Below, one piece after another: positions 16,905 to 60,967 of a stretch of 64,000 bases of DNA. Origin of the DNA: Amycolatopsis sacchari (lineage in GTDB: Bacteria; Actinomycetota; Actinomycetes; Mycobacteriales; Pseudonocardiaceae). The notes under the pieces were generated by a model. The model was not told the DNA's origin. It saw only the letters and a list, made by a program, of their open reading frames with translations, and searched no databases. The first letter of the stretch is position 1. Each line of letters begins with the position of its first letter. The stretch spans positions 62,001 through 126,000 of the forward strand of contig NZ_FORP01000012.1 of assembly GCF_900114035.1 (NCBI RefSeq), written 5' to 3'. A program made the position numbers and the translations under genes.

Positions 16905-17170
16905 CGACTGGCGGGGGATCACGCCGCCCCCGAGCCGTCAGCCGCCACCGCCGAGTCACCACTCGCCACCCGCGAGCCGTCCCCCGCCAGCCGCGAGCCG
17001 TCGGCCGCCACCCCCGAGCCGCGAGCCGTCCCCGCCAGCCGCCACCGCCGAGCCGCCAGCCGTCGGCCACCAGCCGGCGGTCGCCAAGCCGCCAGCCGTC
17101 GGTCGCCACCCCCCGAGCCGCCACCCGCCAGCCGTCAACCGCGAGCCGTCACCCGCGCCCCCCAGCCGCC
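16905..17170. repeat. Degenerate GAGCCG/GCCAGC tandem-repeat tract in the ltp2 downstream gap
   Basis: The 767-bp stretch 16849-17615 between ltp2 and the next gene has no convincing CDS. Its core is a run of variants of CGAGCCGTCCCCGCCAGC with variable spacing (about 16-18 bp). The GAGCCG core recurs many times and the phase shifts, so all plus-strand and minus-strand frames show repetitive Pro/Arg/Ser or Gly-Trp-Arg peptides. The rest of the gap (17171-17615) is GC-rich without repeats; GGGAGG just before 17616 serves the next gene. Confidence 0.7.
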
Positions 17171-17615
17171 GCCAACCGGGCATCCAGAGCCAGGGCGCGC
17201 GGTCGCAGCCAACCGGCATTGCAGGCTATGGCGCGCGCGGTCGCCAACCGGCATCACAAGCTGGCGGCCTGACGTGAGCTCGCGACCCGATTGACCACCG
17301 CCGACGGGTGCGCCCTGCCCCGCGACGCCACTTGGCGACCGGCGGCCAGGCTCCACCCCGCGGCGCCGCTTGACGACCGGCCAGGGCCGCCCACTCCCCG
17401 CTGATCCACGAGGCGCGCCCCGCCTCTCCGGCCATTGACGGGCGCGGTCACCCGGCCGAAGGAGACCGCTCACTCGCATGGCGCAACTACCGTCACCAAC
17501 CGAGAAGGCGCGGTATCCCACAAGGGATCCCGCCACGCCACGACGGCGGGTGATGGTGCATTTCACCTGCTTGACGGCTAGCTCGGGGACTACCGCGTCG
17601 GCGACGGTGGGAGGT

Positions 17616-18188: not shown

Positions 18189-19046
18189 TCACGTCGTGAT
18201 CAGCACCGCGTCCGCGAGCGCGGGGGCATCCCGCTCGACGGTGTTGGTGGCGAGCAGTAGTCGTTTCCCGTCCTGCCACACCCGTGTCCGCAAGGTTTCG
18301 CCCGGGAACACGACGCCCGCGAAGCGCGCCGAGAACGACTGCGCACGCGTGACGTCGCCGTCCAGCACCGCGTCGGTCACGGCCTTCGCGACCATCCCGT
18401 AGGTGCACAGGCCGTGCAGGATCGGCGCGTCGAACCCGGCGCCGCGGGCGAACTCCGGGTCGGCGTGCAAGGGATTCCGGTCACCGCACAACCGGTACAG
18501 CAGCGCCTGCTGTGGCAACGTCGGCGTGTCGATCGTGGCGTCCGGCTCCCGATCGGGCCGCTCCACCTTTTCGGAGTCACCCCGTCGTCCCCCGAAGCCG
18601 CCCTCACCTCGCGCAAAAATTCTCGACTGCGCGGTCCACAGTGGAGTACCATCGGAACCGGCAACGCTCGTCTCGCTCACCACGACCGCGGCCTTGCCCT
18701 TGTCCAGCACATCGACAACCCGAGTGTGCCCGACGGCTTTCCCCTCGACCGGGATCGGCCTGTGCACGGTGACGGCCTGCGCGCCGTGCACGACTTTCGC
18801 CAGGTCTATCTCGATGCCCGGCATCCGTACGGCGGGCGCGTCGACGCTGCGCAGGTTCGCCGCGACCGTCGCGAAAGTGGGCAGCACATGGAGGTCGCGC
18901 TCGTAGGCGTAGCGCAATTCCGCCGGGTTCGTGGGATCCGAGCCGGCGCCGAGTGCGAGGTGGTACAGCAAAACATCGGACGCCGTCCAGGAAAAGCTGA
19001 CCTCACCGAGGTCGGCACCGATGGCGAGCGCGGGGTCGATGGGCAC
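18189..19046 (-). CDS. chsH3: MaoC-type steroid enoyl-CoA hydratase ChsH3
   Basis: The 285-residue double hot-dog hydratase-2 protein has an N-terminal non-catalytic repeat and a C-terminal repeat. The C-terminal repeat contains the motif YRLCGDRNPLHADPEFARGAGF (consensus YxxSGDxNPLHxDPxxA). It matches Rv3538 (ChsH3, formerly called hsd4B), reported to hydrate the C22-C23 enoyl-CoA of the C24 side chain to the opposite C22 stereoisomer from EchA19. It is the last gene of the kstD operon. The GTG start at 19046 lies 9 bp after the kshB stop, and its RBS overlaps the end of kshB. A broad R-specific hydratase role is the alternative. Confidence 0.85.
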   Translation of the reverse strand: MPIDPALAIGADLGEVSFSWTASDVLLYHLALGAGSDPTNPAELRYAYERDLHVLPTFATVAANLRSVDAPAVRMPGIEIDLAKVVHGAQAVTVHRPIPVEGKAVGHTRVVDVLDKGKAAVVVSETSVAGSDGTPLWTAQSRIFARGEGGFGGRRGDSEKVERPDREPDATIDTPTLPQQALLYRLCGDRNPLHADPEFARGAGFDAPILHGLCTYGMVAKAVTDAVLDGDVTRAQSFSARFAGVVFPGETLRTRVWQDGKRLLLATNTVERDAPALADAVLITT

Positions 19047-19055
19047 GCGGCACTC

Positions 19056-20645
19056 CTACTCGTAGGTGACCGACACCTCGTCGGTCAGCGGCACCGACTG
19101 GCAGGCGAGGACGATGCCGTCGGCGATGTCGTCGGAGTCGAGGACCTCGTTGTTGAGCATCTTGACCTCCCCGGCGACGAGGCGGCAGGCGCAGGCACTG
19201 CACTGCCCCTCGCGGCACGAGTAGGGCGCGTCGAGCCCTTGGTCCAGCAGGAAGTCGAGCAACTTTCGCTGCCGCGGCCAGGCGTACTCGTGCCGCACCC
19301 CGTCGAGGTCCACCCGCAGCCTGGTCGCCCCGTCGCTGGGAGACGCCGGTTCGGCGCCGCTCTGTCCGGCAACGGGCGCACCCGCCCCGGCCGGCGGCGC
19401 TTCGCCGGCGAGAGCGGCCGTGTCGGGTTGCTCCCCGTCCTTCGCCGGGATCGCCGCGGGCCGCTGCGTGTCCTTGGCCAGGGTGGTTTGGAATTGCTCG
19501 GTCTGGCCAGCCCCAGTGGTCGCTCCGGGCCGCCTGGTTTGGTTGGCTTCGCTGATTACTCCGAGCTGCTCAGCGGTCTCGGCTACGGTCGTCGTCCCGG
19601 ACTCCGTGCTCTCGGCTACGGCGGCCGTCCCGGGCTGCTCAGTGCCGGCGGCTGCGCTGGCTGCTCCGGGCTGCTCGGTGCTCTCGGCTACGGCCGCCGT
19701 CCCGAACTGCTCCGTGCCCTCGGCTATGGTGGCCGCTTCGGGCTGCTTCGTGCTCCCGGCTACGGGGGCAGCCCCGGGCTGTTCGGTGTTGTCGGCTGTG
19801 GTGGCCGCTCGGAGCTGTTCCGTGTTTTCGGCCGCGGTTGCCGCACCCAGCTGCTCCCTGTCTTCGGCCGCGGTAGCTGCTCCGGCCTCTCTCGCCGTAC
19901 CGGGCTCCTTTGCCCGGCCGGCGGGAGCACCTCGCTCAACCGCGAACGGATTGCCACCCAGCGACACGAACCTTTCCAGGTGAATGCGCTTCCTGGGCAC
20001 GCCGAGATCCGTCAACGCCTGTTTGGCCGCGGCCATGAACGGCGCCGGGCCACACAGGAACGCTTCGAACTCGGCGAACGGCCTCGCCAGAGCGCGCAGC
20101 TGCTCGACGTTCGGCAAGCCCTGCACCGACTCGAGCCAGTGCAGCACCACGAACCGGTCCGGAAACTCCCGTGCCAGTGCGGCGAGCTCCCCGGCGAAGA
20201 TCACCGACTGCTCGTCACGATTGGCGTAGACCAGGGTGACGCGGCCCGTGCCCTGCCGCAACGCCGTCTTCAGGATCGACATCACCGGCGTGATCCCGCT
20301 GCCACCGGCGAACAGCAGCAGGTTCTCGTCGAAATCCTTCGGCGTGAACACACCCGCAGGGGCGAGCACGTCGACAGCCGCGCCAGGCCGCACGTTGGCG
20401 CAGATCCAGTTGGAGCCGTAGCCGCCCTCGGTGCGCTTCACCGTGACCTTGAGCCGCGTCCCCTCGTGCGGCGCGCTCGACAGCGAGTAGCACCGCGCCG
20501 CCTCGCCCACGCGCAACGTGAGGAACTGGCCGGGCCGATACCGGAAAGCCTCAGCTTGTTCAGGCGTCAGCTCGAAGACCACCGACCGCGCGTCCGGGGT
20601 TTCGACGATCACCTCGGCCACAGTGAGCGTGTGGACCTCAGGCAT
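19056..20645 (-). CDS. kshB: KshB, reductase of 3-ketosteroid 9alpha-hydroxylase, with an extra repeat linker
   Basis: The order of domains is that of KshB. A FAD-binding barrel with RCYSLSS (51-57) comes first, then an NAD-binding domain (LFAGGSGITPVMS, FLCGPAPFM) to about residue 235. At the C-terminus is a plant-type 2Fe-2S domain with C477, C482, C485 and C515. It passes electrons from NADH to KshA. The protein is 529 residues against about 358 for M. tuberculosis KshB. The difference is a segment at about residues 236-440, mostly ~13 degenerate 12-residue repeats of the type EQPGAATVAEST. The reading frame stays open through it. The ATG at 20645 overlaps the small upstream gene by 8 bp. 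Activity with such a long flexible tether is probable but unproven. Confidence 0.92.
   Translation of the reverse strand: MPEVHTLTVAEVIVETPDARSVVFELTPEQAEAFRYRPGQFLTLRVGEAARCYSLSSAPHEGTRLKVTVKRTEGGYGSNWICANVRPGAAVDVLAPAGVFTPKDFDENLLLFAGGSGITPVMSILKTALRQGTGRVTLVYANRDEQSVIFAGELAALAREFPDRFVVLHWLESVQGLPNVEQLRALARPFAEFEAFLCGPAPFMAAAKQALTDLGVPRKRIHLERFVSLGGNPFAVERGAPAGRAKEPGTAREAGAATAAEDREQLGAATAAENTEQLRAATTADNTEQPGAAPVAGSTKQPEAATIAEGTEQFGTAAVAESTEQPGAASAAAGTEQPGTAAVAESTESGTTTVAETAEQLGVISEANQTRRPGATTGAGQTEQFQTTLAKDTQRPAAIPAKDGEQPDTAALAGEAPPAGAGAPVAGQSGAEPASPSDGATRLRVDLDGVRHEYAWPRQRKLLDFLLDQGLDAPYSCREGQCSACACRLVAGEVKMLNNEVLDSDDIADGIVLACQSVPLTDEVSVTYE
19390..19856 (-). repeat. 36-bp degenerate coding repeats inside kshB
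   Basis: About 13 tandem 36-bp units encode 12-residue repeats starting EQ (EQLGAATAAENT, EQLRAATTADNT, EQPGAAPVAGST, KQPEAATIAEGT, EQFGTAAVAEST and so on). The period is a multiple of 3 and all units stay in frame. The units decay toward the C-terminal end (QRPAAIPAKDG). The tract sits exactly between the two folded domains. Confidence 0.88.
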
Positions 20646-20905: not shown

Positions 20906-22030
20906 TCAGACTCCCGCCTGCTGCCGGGCCAGGTTCTCGGCGACCTCCCGTGCCCAGACCTCGTTCGCTTTCGTCGTGTCCACTTCGAACTCGAAGCGGC
21001 GCGTCATGTCCTCGGTGACCTCCTCGATGTCCACATAGAACTGTTCGTACCAGCGGCGCAACTGGTACACGGGCCCGTCCTCCTCGCAGAGCAACGGGTT
21101 GTCGATCCGTGTCTTATTCTTCCATATCTCGACGTCCTGCAGGAAGCCCACGCCTATGCTCTTGGCGAACTTCCCGGCGATTTTGTCCGCCTGTTCGTCT
21201 GAAACGCCGGGCAGCTTCTTCACGCTGACACCCCATTGGAGGACAAAGGAGTTCGGCGTCACCGGATAGTGGCAATTGATGAGCACGTTCTCGATCTCGA
21301 ACCCCTTGAACGTGTTGACCAGTTTGTTGATCATGTAGGACGGTCCGAAGTACGAGGCCTCCGAGCGGAGCAGGTTCTCCTCCCCGCCGTAGTTGGACGC
21401 CATGCCGACGTCCGGGCGCCCCTTGGTGTTCAGGTACTGCGTCGCGATGTGGCCTTCGAAGACGTTCTTGAAGTAGGTCGGGAAGGCGTAGTGGATGTAG
21501 AAGAAGTGCGCCATGTCGACCATGTTGTCCACGATCTCGCGGCAGTTGGAGCCTTCGATGAGCACGGAGTCCCACGTCCAGTTGCTCCACTCGCCACTGA
21601 AGATCCCGTCGATCCGGGGGATGACGACGTTCTCCGGCGGCGGGTTGCCCTGTGGGTCGTGCCAGACGAACAGCTGCTTGTTCTCCTCGAGTGTGAGCCA
21701 GGAACGCGTGCGAGCGCGCAGCGGAACCCTTTTGGCGTAAGGGATGGAGACGCACTTGCCGTTGCCGGCCCAGCGCCAGTCGTGGAACGGGCAGGCGATC
21801 TCGTTGCCCTTGACGGTGCCTTGCGTGAGATCACCCCCCATGTGGCGGCAGTACCCGTCCAGGACGTTGAGCTTGCCGTCCTCGCTCTGGAACACGACTA
21901 GCTTGGTGCCGAAGGCGGAGATGGCGTGCGGCTTCCCGTCCTTGAACGAGTCGGCGAGGCCCAGGCAGTGCCAGCCCCGGGCGAAGCGCTCCGGCGGAGC
22001 CCCGGCGTCGATGGTGCGGACTTCAGTCAT
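20906..22030 (-). CDS. kshA: KshA, Rieske oxygenase of 3-ketosteroid 9alpha-hydroxylase
   Basis: The 374-residue protein has a Rieske centre with C61-R-H63 (YCRHMGGDL) and C80-P-F-H83 (CPFHDWRW). The catalytic domain has the mononuclear iron segment DNMVDMAHFFYIHYAFPTYF, with two histidines and a downstream Asp in LQDVEIW. It hydroxylates C9 of androstadienedione-type steroids, which spontaneously opens ring B after KstD action. Length and sequence match KshA (Rv3526, about 386 residues). The ATG at 22030 overlaps the kstD stop (ATGA). Electrons come from KshB two genes downstream. It is regulated from the kstD promoter with its KstR box. Confidence 0.95.
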   Translation of the reverse strand: MTEVRTIDAGAPPERFARGWHCLGLADSFKDGKPHAISAFGTKLVVFQSEDGKLNVLDGYCRHMGGDLTQGTVKGNEIACPFHDWRWAGNGKCVSIPYAKRVPLRARTRSWLTLEENKQLFVWHDPQGNPPPENVVIPRIDGIFSGEWSNWTWDSVLIEGSNCREIVDNMVDMAHFFYIHYAFPTYFKNVFEGHIATQYLNTKGRPDVGMASNYGGEENLLRSEASYFGPSYMINKLVNTFKGFEIENVLINCHYPVTPNSFVLQWGVSVKKLPGVSDEQADKIAGKFAKSIGVGFLQDVEIWKNKTRIDNPLLCEEDGPVYQLRRWYEQFYVDIEEVTEDMTRRFEFEVDTTKANEVWAREVAENLARQQAGV

Positions 22031-23802
22031 CGTCGACCTCCAGTGCGATTCTGGGCGGCCAGGTGCGCGGCCGCAAGGTAGCCGAAGACCATCGCGGGCC
22101 CGATCGTCGCGCCGGGGCCCGCGTACGTGTGGCCCATGACCGCCGCGCTGGTGTTGCCCGCCGCGTACAGCCCCTCGATCACGGACCCGTCTTCCCGCAG
22201 CACGCGGGCGTGGGGGTCGATGCGGAGCCCGCCCTTGGTGCCCAGGTCACCGGGCACGATCCTGACCGCGTAGAACGGCGGCTTGTCCAGCGGGCCGAGG
22301 CTGGGGTTGGGCTTGTTGCGGGGATCTCCGTAGTAGTGGTCGTAGGCGCTGTTCCCGCGCCCGAAGTCCTCGTCGATGCCGGTGCGGGCGAAACCGTTGA
22401 ACCGTGCGACGGTGTGTTCGAGTGCATCCGTCGGCACCCCGATGCGTTCCGCGAGCGCGTGGAGTGTTCTCGCCTTCGCGGCGACACCGGCCTTGAACCA
22501 CCGGCCGGGCAGCGGTTGCCGCGGGCCGAGCCCGGTGAACATGTAGCGGTTGCGGTAGCGCTGGTCGAACACGAGCCAGGTCGGGATGTGCTCACCAGGA
22601 CCGTCGCCCGGGCCGTACATGGCGTGCACCGCCTCGACGTACGGCGCCGACTCGTTGACGAACCGTTCCCCGCGGGCGTCGACCATCAGGCAGCCGGGCC
22701 GGGACCGCTCGGCAAGGGCGAACCACGGCCCGCCGGTGAGCGGGATCGTCGGTCCCCACCACGCGTCGTCCATCAGGTCCACGGCGGCACCGAGCTTCAG
22801 CCCGGCCACGATGGCGTCCCCGGTGTTGGCGCGTGCGCCGACGGTCCATTCGGTGCCGATCGGCTGGCGCTGGTACTTGGTGCGCATTTCCTCGTTGCGC
22901 TCGAACCCGCCGGCCGCGAGGACGACGCCCAGCCTGGCGTGGAGGACTTCGCCGCCCGTCGTCACCACTCCCGTGACCCGGCCGTCCTCGGTAACCAGGT
23001 CGACAAGCGGGGAATTGAGGCGGACCGGGACTCCGGCGTCGCGCAACCCGGTGCGCAATCCCGCCGCAAGCGCTTGCCCCATGCTGAGCAGGCGGCGCCC
23101 GGTCAAGCGGCCGGTCAGCCAGCGGCCGGCGAGGGTGAGCAGCCGGAGCGCGCCACGGGGGTGCCGCGCGAGGAGGCTCAGCCACCGGTAGTCGGCCTGG
23201 GTGATCGGGACCCCGAGGGGCGCCGCGCTGTACGGGGGTTCGAGGGCGGCGAGGTCGTCGCCGAGGAGGCGGCCGTCGAAGGGCACGGGCTCGACGGACC
23301 GGCCCGCAGCGCGCCCGCCCGGTGCTTCCGGGTGGTAGTCGGAGTAGTGGGGCACCCACTGGAACCGCAGGGGTGTCCGCCGCTGCACGAACGCGACCAC
23401 CTCCGGCCCCCGGTCCAGGAAGGTTTCGCGTAGCTCCGCGGGGACGACGTCCCCGACGATGGCTTCGAGGTAGGTCCGCGCCTGGTCAGGGGTGTCGGGC
23501 TCGTCGAGTCCGTGCCGGTGCTGCTGGAGGCGTGCGCGGGGGAGCCGGCTGGAACCGCCGTCGTTCGCCTGTGTGTCCTCGCCCGCAGCCTGTCCGGCAG
23601 CGCACAGCACCTCGTTGTTCGGAATCCACACCCCACCGCCGGACCGCGCGGTGGAGCCGCCGAACTTGCCTGCCTTCTCCAGCACCACGACCTGGAGTCC
23701 CTGGTGAGCGGCGGCGAGTGCGGCGGTCATGCCGGCTGCCCCGCTGCCGACCACGACGACGTCGTACTCCGCGTGGTCGCCGTTGCCGTGCTCGACGGCC
23801 AT
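22027..23802 (-). CDS. kstD: 3-ketosteroid delta1-dehydrogenase KstD
   Basis: The 591-residue flavoprotein has the FAD motif GSGAAGMTAALAAAHQG, the KstD signature GKFGGSTARSGGGVWIPNN, and the C-terminal FAD/catalytic segment TYAGPGATIGPAMVFGYLAA. The tyrosine in that segment corresponds to the catalytic Tyr of the Rhodococcus enzyme. It introduces the C1-C2 double bond of the steroid A ring. The start is ATG 23802 behind GGAGG; an upstream in-frame start at 23865 would put the KstR box inside the gene. Length is slightly above the usual 510-570. It is the first gene of the operon kstD-kshA-small gene-kshB-chsH3. Confidence 0.95.
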   Translation of the reverse strand: MAVEHGNGDHAEYDVVVVGSGAAGMTAALAAAHQGLQVVVLEKAGKFGGSTARSGGGVWIPNNEVLCAAGQAAGEDTQANDGGSSRLPRARLQQHRHGLDEPDTPDQARTYLEAIVGDVVPAELRETFLDRGPEVVAFVQRRTPLRFQWVPHYSDYHPEAPGGRAAGRSVEPVPFDGRLLGDDLAALEPPYSAAPLGVPITQADYRWLSLLARHPRGALRLLTLAGRWLTGRLTGRRLLSMGQALAAGLRTGLRDAGVPVRLNSPLVDLVTEDGRVTGVVTTGGEVLHARLGVVLAAGGFERNEEMRTKYQRQPIGTEWTVGARANTGDAIVAGLKLGAAVDLMDDAWWGPTIPLTGGPWFALAERSRPGCLMVDARGERFVNESAPYVEAVHAMYGPGDGPGEHIPTWLVFDQRYRNRYMFTGLGPRQPLPGRWFKAGVAAKARTLHALAERIGVPTDALEHTVARFNGFARTGIDEDFGRGNSAYDHYYGDPRNKPNPSLGPLDKPPFYAVRIVPGDLGTKGGLRIDPHARVLREDGSVIEGLYAAGNTSAAVMGHTYAGPGATIGPAMVFGYLAAAHLAAQNRTGGRR

Positions 23803-23815
23803 GTCACCTCCGAAG

Positions 23816-23829
23816 TGAAACGCGTTCCA
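23816..23829. promoter_or_regulatory. KstR box upstream of kstD (14/14)
   Basis: TGAAACGCGTTCCA is a perfect TNNAACNNGTTNNA, 13 bp upstream of the kstD start and overlapping its ribosome-site region. Confidence 0.9.
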
Positions 23830-23872
23830 GTCGAGAACCCGCCTGTTCGCCGCTCCCGTCGTCACGATAGAC

Positions 23873-54499: not shown

Positions 54500-54850
54500 C
54501 ATGAGCCCCGCCGCCACCGTCGGCGCGGTCCCGGGGCTTCCGGCGCCGTGCGGCGTCGCCGACGCGATCCGCGGCACAGCTGGTGCGTTCCCGGGGGCTT
54601 CCGGCGCTGCGCGGCACCGCCGGCGCGATCCGTGGGCACCGCCGGCGCGATCCGTGGCACCGCCAACGCGATCCGCGGCACTGCTGGCGCGACCCTTGGG
54701 GCTTCCGGTGCGTGCGGCACCGCTGGCGCGATCTGCGGCGTTGCGGCGCGATCGACGGCAACGCCAACGCGATTCACGGAACTGCAGGCGCGACCTACGG
54801 CCCTGCCGGTGCGTTCCCGGGCACTGGCGAGGTGTTTCACCGGCACTGCC
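54500..54850. repeat. Degenerate 21-bp repeat tract with frame changes downstream of fadA5
   Basis: Variants of GGCGCGATCCGTGGCACCGCC (21 bp) recur through this stretch. Read on the plus strand, the same Gly/Ala-rich peptide motif (GTAGAIR, with GAFPGASG variants) appears in one frame, then another, then the first again, so indels separate the blocks. An ATG at 54502 opens MSPAATVGAVPGLP and runs about 40 residues into the first block. It is either a decayed repetitive gene or a non-coding repeat. The rest of the 1,223-bp gap (54851-55541) shows no gene. Confidence 0.65.
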
Positions 54851-60669: not shown

Positions 60670-60967
60670 GGCGAGGCCCCGGCGGCGCCGTTTTCAAGGC
60701 TGCGGGTCGGCCTTTGTGGTTGCGTCGTCTCCGCGTCGCCGCCTGTGAGGCCAGGGGGGTGCCGTTTTCAAGGCTGCGGGTCGGCCTTTGCGGTTGCGCC
60801 GTTCCCGCGTCGCCACCTGTGAGGCCAGGGCGGCGCCGTTTTCAAGGCTGCGCGTCGGTCTTTGCGGATCCACCGGCCCCACGTCGCCACCTGTGAGCCC
60901 CCGGCGGCGCCGTTTTCAAGGCTGCGCGTCGGCCTCCGCGGATCCACCGTCCCCACGTCGCGAGGCC
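60670..60967. repeat. Four 74-bp direct tandem repeats
   Basis: The core CGCCGTTTTCAAGGCTGCG begins each unit; its GTTTTCAAGGCT lies at 60690, 60764, 60838 and 60912, a constant spacing of 74 bp. Units also share GTCGGCCTTTG, CCGCGTCGCCACCTGTGAGGCC and similar blocks. The fourth unit is cut short at its end. The period is not a multiple of 3, so the repeats cannot be a coding repeat in one frame. No gene is seen in 60466-61022. Confidence 0.9.

Follow-up and report, generated by a model that had tools for sequence, protein, structure and literature searches.

The kshB gene in the analysed stretch of DNA from the soil actinobacterium Amycolatopsis sacchari (64,000 nucleotides, hereafter the window) is best read as encoding a working KshB whose variable, disordered hinge grew to about 210 residues through duplication of a 36 bp unit, the extra length being largely neutral. 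We assign this reading a probability of roughly 0.7. The unit would have been duplicated in this Amycolatopsis lineage, inside a hinge that is naturally variable and disordered; point changes and codon-sized insertions and deletions would then have eroded the array. Electrons would flow as in other KshB proteins, from NADH through FAD and the 2Fe-2S cluster to the Rieske cluster in KshA. On its long leash, the ferredoxin half would act more as a tethered carrier than as a hinged domain, and the added length would have been retained since the hinge tolerates extension.

Gene, domains and neighbours

The features of the locus are as follows (window coordinates).

18189..19046, minus strand: MaoC-type hydratase gene (Pfam MaoC_dehydratas), downstream of kshB
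19056..20645, minus strand: kshB, 529 amino acids from an ATG start, 3-ketosteroid 9alpha-monooxygenase reductase subunit (open reading frame, Pfam and homologue)
19059..19313, minus strand: plant-type 2Fe-2S ferredoxin domain, residues 445-529 (Pfam Fer2, E 7e-17)
19314..19943, minus strand: expanded interdomain linker, residues 235-444, 210 residues (alignment and pLDDT)
19401..19889, minus strand: 14 repeat units of type EQPGTAAVAEST, nine of 12 and five of 11 residues, within residues 253-415
19944..20645, minus strand: FAD- and NAD-binding (FNR-like) domains, residues 1-234 (Pfam and pLDDT)
20906..22030, minus strand: kshA, the Rieske oxygenase partner, 374 amino acids (Pfam KshA_C, E 3e-94, and Rieske), with its stop 260 bp upstream of the kshB start
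22027..23865, minus strand: kstD, 3-ketosteroid delta1-dehydrogenase (NCBIfam PRK07843 above cut-off), overlapping kshA by 4 bp

kshB is a single intact reading frame of 529 codons. Its product was matched by Pfam to FAD_binding_6 (residues 8-100), NAD_binding_1 (112-208) and Fer2 (446-519), all above cut-off. Cys477, Cys482, Cys485 and Cys515, which we take to be the ligands of the 2Fe-2S cluster, are invariant across 39 aligned sequences. The same holds for Arg51-Ser54 (RCYS) and, within GGSGITP (114-120), for Gly115 and Gly117-Pro120; these are presumably the FNR-type FAD- and NAD-binding motifs. A search of solved structures at E 1e-20 gave chain 5ogx as the sole match, covering the FNR part. 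The 50 Foldseek matches listed, of 1489, were flavohaemoglobins, cytochrome b5 reductases, FNR-type and other flavin reductases and P450 fusions, and those listed appear to bear on the FNR half alone.

The best named homologue was P0002 from A. bartoniae (3-ketosteroid 9alpha-monooxygenase subunit B; 87% identity, 44% of the query covered), many other homologues being named merely ferredoxin--NADP reductase. Of 25 related NCBIfam models for the kshB protein, none reached its cut-off and none was named KshB; the kshA protein was likewise matched by no NCBIfam model above cut-off for KshA. The names KshB and KshA are therefore based on Pfam matches, on homologues and on the order of the genes.

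These results agree with the earlier note, which had described a KshB adjoining its KshA, 529 codons long, with repeats in frame between NAD-binding and 2Fe-2S domains that keep their motifs. Its count of about 13 repeats holds if degenerate edge units are included (14 units as cut here), and not otherwise (9.2 copies in TRF). The frame does stay open through the repeats, as the note had stated, but taken alone this counts for little, since the linker is likewise free of stops in two of the three plus-strand frames. The remaining two minus-strand frames carry six and three stops.

Constraint on the domains

Relative to A. bartoniae, omega was 0.12 across the two kshB domains combined and 0.06 in the ferredoxin domain alone; with five relatives the ranges were 0.12-0.21 for the former and 0.06-0.17 for the latter. 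kshB retains every one of the 127 residues that do not vary among 38 relatives, and it differs at two of the 174 columns conserved at 90% or more. By these measures both domains are under purifying selection. Given this constraint and the retention of all 127 invariant residues, kshB most likely works, i.e. it encodes an active reductase.

The repeat array

TRF reported 9.2 copies with a period of 36 bp and 69% match. Nucleotide self-identity of the linker was 0.534 at a lag of 36 and 0.525 at a lag of 72. In 2000 codon shuffles the corresponding means were 0.348 (s.d. 0.018) and 0.348 (s.d. 0.019) and the maxima 0.407 and 0.412, both below the observed values; the 36 bp periodicity far exceeds chance. 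With the units as cut here, their differences in length are single codons. Identity among seven consecutive units is 68-76% whatever their spacing, and the longest exact repeat in the linker is 17 bp. Because the units differ by 24-32% at every spacing, the array looks old and eroded rather than a live minisatellite, in which greater uniformity would be expected.

Further copies of the unit, or a source for it, were sought in the rest of the genome. In the organism's own proteome the best non-self match had E 0.014 (three such matches), and in its DNA the best was 35 bp long with E 9e-4 (42 non-self matches at E <= 10). TRF applied to the 12 non-self loci of a set of 14 gave arrays scoring at least 90 in L122, L125 and L126, none with the kshB linker unit.

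Linker length among relatives

Linker lengths were measured by alignment to the A. bartoniae protein. The kshB product of the window shares with other KshB proteins, reductases of a class IA Rieske oxygenase system, the order of FAD, NAD and plant-type 2Fe-2S domains and the adjoining kshA and kstD; FNR-type domains, a C-terminal four-cysteine 2Fe-2S domain, kinship with KshB and pairing with kshA are all present. The difference lies in the hinge, with 210 residues against 14-35 in the 119 best-scoring relatives, most commonly 19 (51 of 119). The wider set of 130 loci, partly redundant, gave 14-89 residues in 126; the other four, in which either half or both had low identity, were excluded.

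Long forms were sought among proteins of about 385-1225 residues matching the FNR half, of which 202 reached E <= 1e-40 among 7998 scored. The best 120 of these 202 were used, some being fusions with other domains. When the window's own protein was excluded, 106 of the remaining 119 had a ferredoxin half of at least 30% identity and carried linkers of at most 104 residues; 13 were dropped for low ferredoxin identity. The longest KshB-like linkers, in P0227 (104 residues), P0162 from Saccharopolyspora hordei (89), P0123 (85) and P0167 (81), join the same halves and are also of low complexity, but they are at most about half as long as that of kshB, were missed by the linker search and by eye are without the 12-residue unit. 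Several long linkers are, again by eye, repetitive in their own ways and with unrelated sequences (P0227 GAGS-rich, P0133 PETPPE, P0164 APGAP, locus L221 AQAVQ).

The linker alone was searched against 5.8 billion proteins, with 7995 candidates of 291-925 residues scored, and the single match was the protein itself. Among the open-licence papers searched, none on an expanded KshB was found. The earlier statements that KshB homologues have a short hinge, which applies to the nearest relatives, and that a KshB of this form is not known to have been described stand for the sets searched. Among the sequences compared, the linker is about twice the next longest and looks to mark the end of a continuum of lengths rather than a new type. 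A short hinge would then be a usual rather than a defining trait of KshB, other KshB-like proteins reaching 104 residues.

In a survey of 19 genomes of the genus, the present one included, 18 had a kshB match at E 1e-60, and kshB of G005 was 100% identical to P0002. At L223, L224 and L225, in three members of the family (G189, G164 and G149), a KshB-like FNR half was observed with no ferredoxin motif in any frame over 3 kb, using one strict pattern; these are possibly reductases that use a separate ferredoxin. At L231 neither motif was matched under the same strict patterns.

Predicted shape and reach of the linker

The AlphaFold2 model gave pLDDT values, per block of ten residues, of 70-97 for residues 1-240, 27-50 for 241-440 and 34-46 for 471-529. 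Two low-confidence helices are drawn within the linker (260-283 and 354-367). The low values in the ferredoxin half limit the use of the model. Of the 210 linker residues, 29 are acidic, 14 basic and 18 both bulky and hydrophobic; none is a cysteine. From prediction and composition the linker is probably disordered, as had been proposed, its low pLDDT being as expected of disorder.

A Gaussian-chain estimate gave an r.m.s. reach of about 13 nm and an effective concentration of about 0.3 mM for 210 residues, compared with about 3 nm and 22 mM for 17 residues. At about 0.3 mM, internal electron hand-off need not be lost. Dihydrolipoyl acyltransferases are swinging-arm enzymes with Ala/Pro-rich linkers. 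Their carrier domain is likewise tethered through a flexible segment rich in Ala; their domains and chemistry differ from those of kshB and the analogy is one of working only.

In a review, the electron route is given as NADH, FAD of KshB, the plant-type cluster of KshB and the Rieske cluster of KshA; KshA is described as a trimer, and one KshB is said to be able to serve several KshAs (PMC4064121). A second study reports that reductases without the 2Fe-2S domain were inactive and that free ferredoxin added to KshA and reductase led to higher conversion (PMC10992505). Such behaviour makes a long leash plausible without showing selection for it.

Age of, and selection on, the units

Pairwise comparison of the nine full units gave pS 0.434, pN 0.304 and pN/pS 0.70 (bootstrap interval 0.41-1.10), the ratio reaching 1 in 6.5% of bootstraps; the third-position excess had p 0.12. 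The ratio was 0.57 for the first seven units, which hints at some constraint, and 0.70 for the first eight. By frame, it was 0.70 in the true frame, 1.08 and 0.86 in the other sense frames and 0.67 in one antisense frame. Since an antisense frame scores below the true one, the test is of low power. The linker has a third-position G+C of 0.776 and the domains one of 0.90, a difference that fits weak constraint. Overall, the evolution of the units is compatible with neutrality, coding constraint not being significant in these tests.

Synonymous divergence between units was about 0.65 (interval 0.42-1.01), compared with 0.56 for the kshB domains relative to A. bartoniae. If rates are equal, the similarity of these values places the duplication of the units at about the time of the A. 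bartoniae split. The yardstick is rough, other genes giving 0.32 (kshA), 0.50 (kstD) and 0.82 (maoC). As the array would have stayed open for so long, selection for its presence is conceivable.

Arrays and insertions elsewhere

TRF arrays scoring at least 200 occurred at 22.5, 4.2 and 37.2 per Mb in three stretches of the present genome (G000), and at 20, 20 and 15 per Mb in the relatives G005, G003 and G016, respectively. The stretch from the kshB contig (eight arrays) has 1.7-2.5 times the density of the relatives and of C32, and about nine times that of C58. Insertions of at least 15 residues numbered 12 in G000 versus two in G003 (107 orthologue pairs), seven versus five in G016 (99 pairs) and five versus three in G005 (39 pairs); these counts are rough, the kshB insert being scored as two or three and some frames perhaps not being genes. 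kshB held the largest single insertion in each of the three comparisons (106, 89 and 172 residues), so its expansion is not merely general gene behaviour. Against G003, five of the ten other insertions lie in one long repeat-rich frame, L167 11377-15816, and together roughly match the kshB insert in length; kshB is therefore not alone. That frame runs to 1480 codons, is rich in GGLPQRQP-like repeats and, relative to G003, contains five insertions of 22-67 residues; it may suit the part of a variable coding repeat better than kshB does.

kstD, in the same operon, carries an insertion (window 23455-23634, from about residue 88) that is flanked by WIPNNEVL and DTPDQAR and measures 32, 20 and 30 residues in the alignments to G003, G005 and G016, respectively; repeats of at least 12 bp were sought in it and none was found. 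Roughly 1.9 kb separate the end of kshB from a short-period array of the AGCCGCC type (window 16933-17177) that follows a lipid-transfer protein gene. In A. bartoniae a different, near-perfect 8 bp array of 23 copies (GCCCGCCA; L192 11428-11610) lies about 1.7 kb from its kshB; judged by distance, the two look to occupy the same spacer. Two other arrays (window 54557-54829, period 101 bp/21 bp, and 60673-60961, period 74 bp) lie in or near open frames that by eye resemble lipid-metabolism genes.

Alternative explanations

The long linker may instead have been selected, allowing the ferredoxin half to reach one or more KshA sites or a crowded complex without docking of the flavin half; the hinged class IA design would thereby shift towards one with free ferredoxin. 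By synonymous divergence the array dates from about the A. bartoniae split and yet is open, the first seven units have the lower pN/pS, the estimated reach and concentration leave internal hand-off feasible, and in PMC10992505 free ferredoxin raised conversion and loss of the 2Fe-2S domain abolished activity. The longer reach to KshA suggested earlier is thus physically sensible, but significant sequence-level selection on the units was not detected. The genome has a single KshA_C match at E 1e-20, as in 12 of the 18 genomes with a match (18 of 19 surveyed; two copies in the other six), and this KshA is without obvious co-change (96% identity to that of A. bartoniae, omega 0.055). Long linkers elsewhere differ in sequence and by eye share no common motif. 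We therefore regard selection for reach as unlikely, and the more specific view of a semi-detached ferredoxin, a natural intermediate between two- and three-component Rieske systems selected since about the A. bartoniae split, as a little less likely still. A functional gain from the long linker is nevertheless possible. Release of the ferredoxin half as a second product, by linker proteolysis or from an internal start such as the GTG of Val445 (window 19313, with AGG six bases ahead), is very improbable. A disordered linker would be open to proteases; however, in-frame ATG, GTG and TTG are absent at residues 228-444, where only CTG occurs (229, 266, 389 and 443), so that the two-chain outcome raised in the earlier note is weakened as far as internal initiation is concerned. 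Val445 is invariant in the 39 aligned proteins and is thus a conserved residue rather than a new start.

The note had further suggested a coding minisatellite, in which a repeat number varying between strains would tune the enzyme. The units are in-frame and tandem with a 36 bp period and more arrays lie on the same contig, but their flat 68-76% identity and the 17 bp maximum exact repeat leave little substrate for slippage, and the protein cluster with the kshB product lists three members (a count only). A live array of this kind has a very small chance of being correct. The other doubt that it raised, an artefact of assembly or sequencing, is the least probable of all: the genome is a draft of 72 contigs, but an exact repeat of only 17 bp makes misassembly unlikely, the frame is intact, and the cluster lists three contigs, the longest of 218834 bases against 217314 for our own, which suggests at least one other assembly. 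Enlargement of a tolerant hinge in a working KshB remains the preferred reading.

Significance

The hinge of this enzyme appears to accept low-complexity expansion in several relatives. kshB offers a natural case in which to ask how far the tether joining a flavin reductase to its ferredoxin can be lengthened before Rieske electron transfer suffers. 3-Ketosteroid 9alpha-hydroxylase (KSH) is used for steroid intermediates and its yield depends on electron supply, according to PMC4064121 and PMC10992505. With this use and a short-linker KshB in A. bartoniae at 88% domain identity, a comparison of long and short forms is ready to hand.
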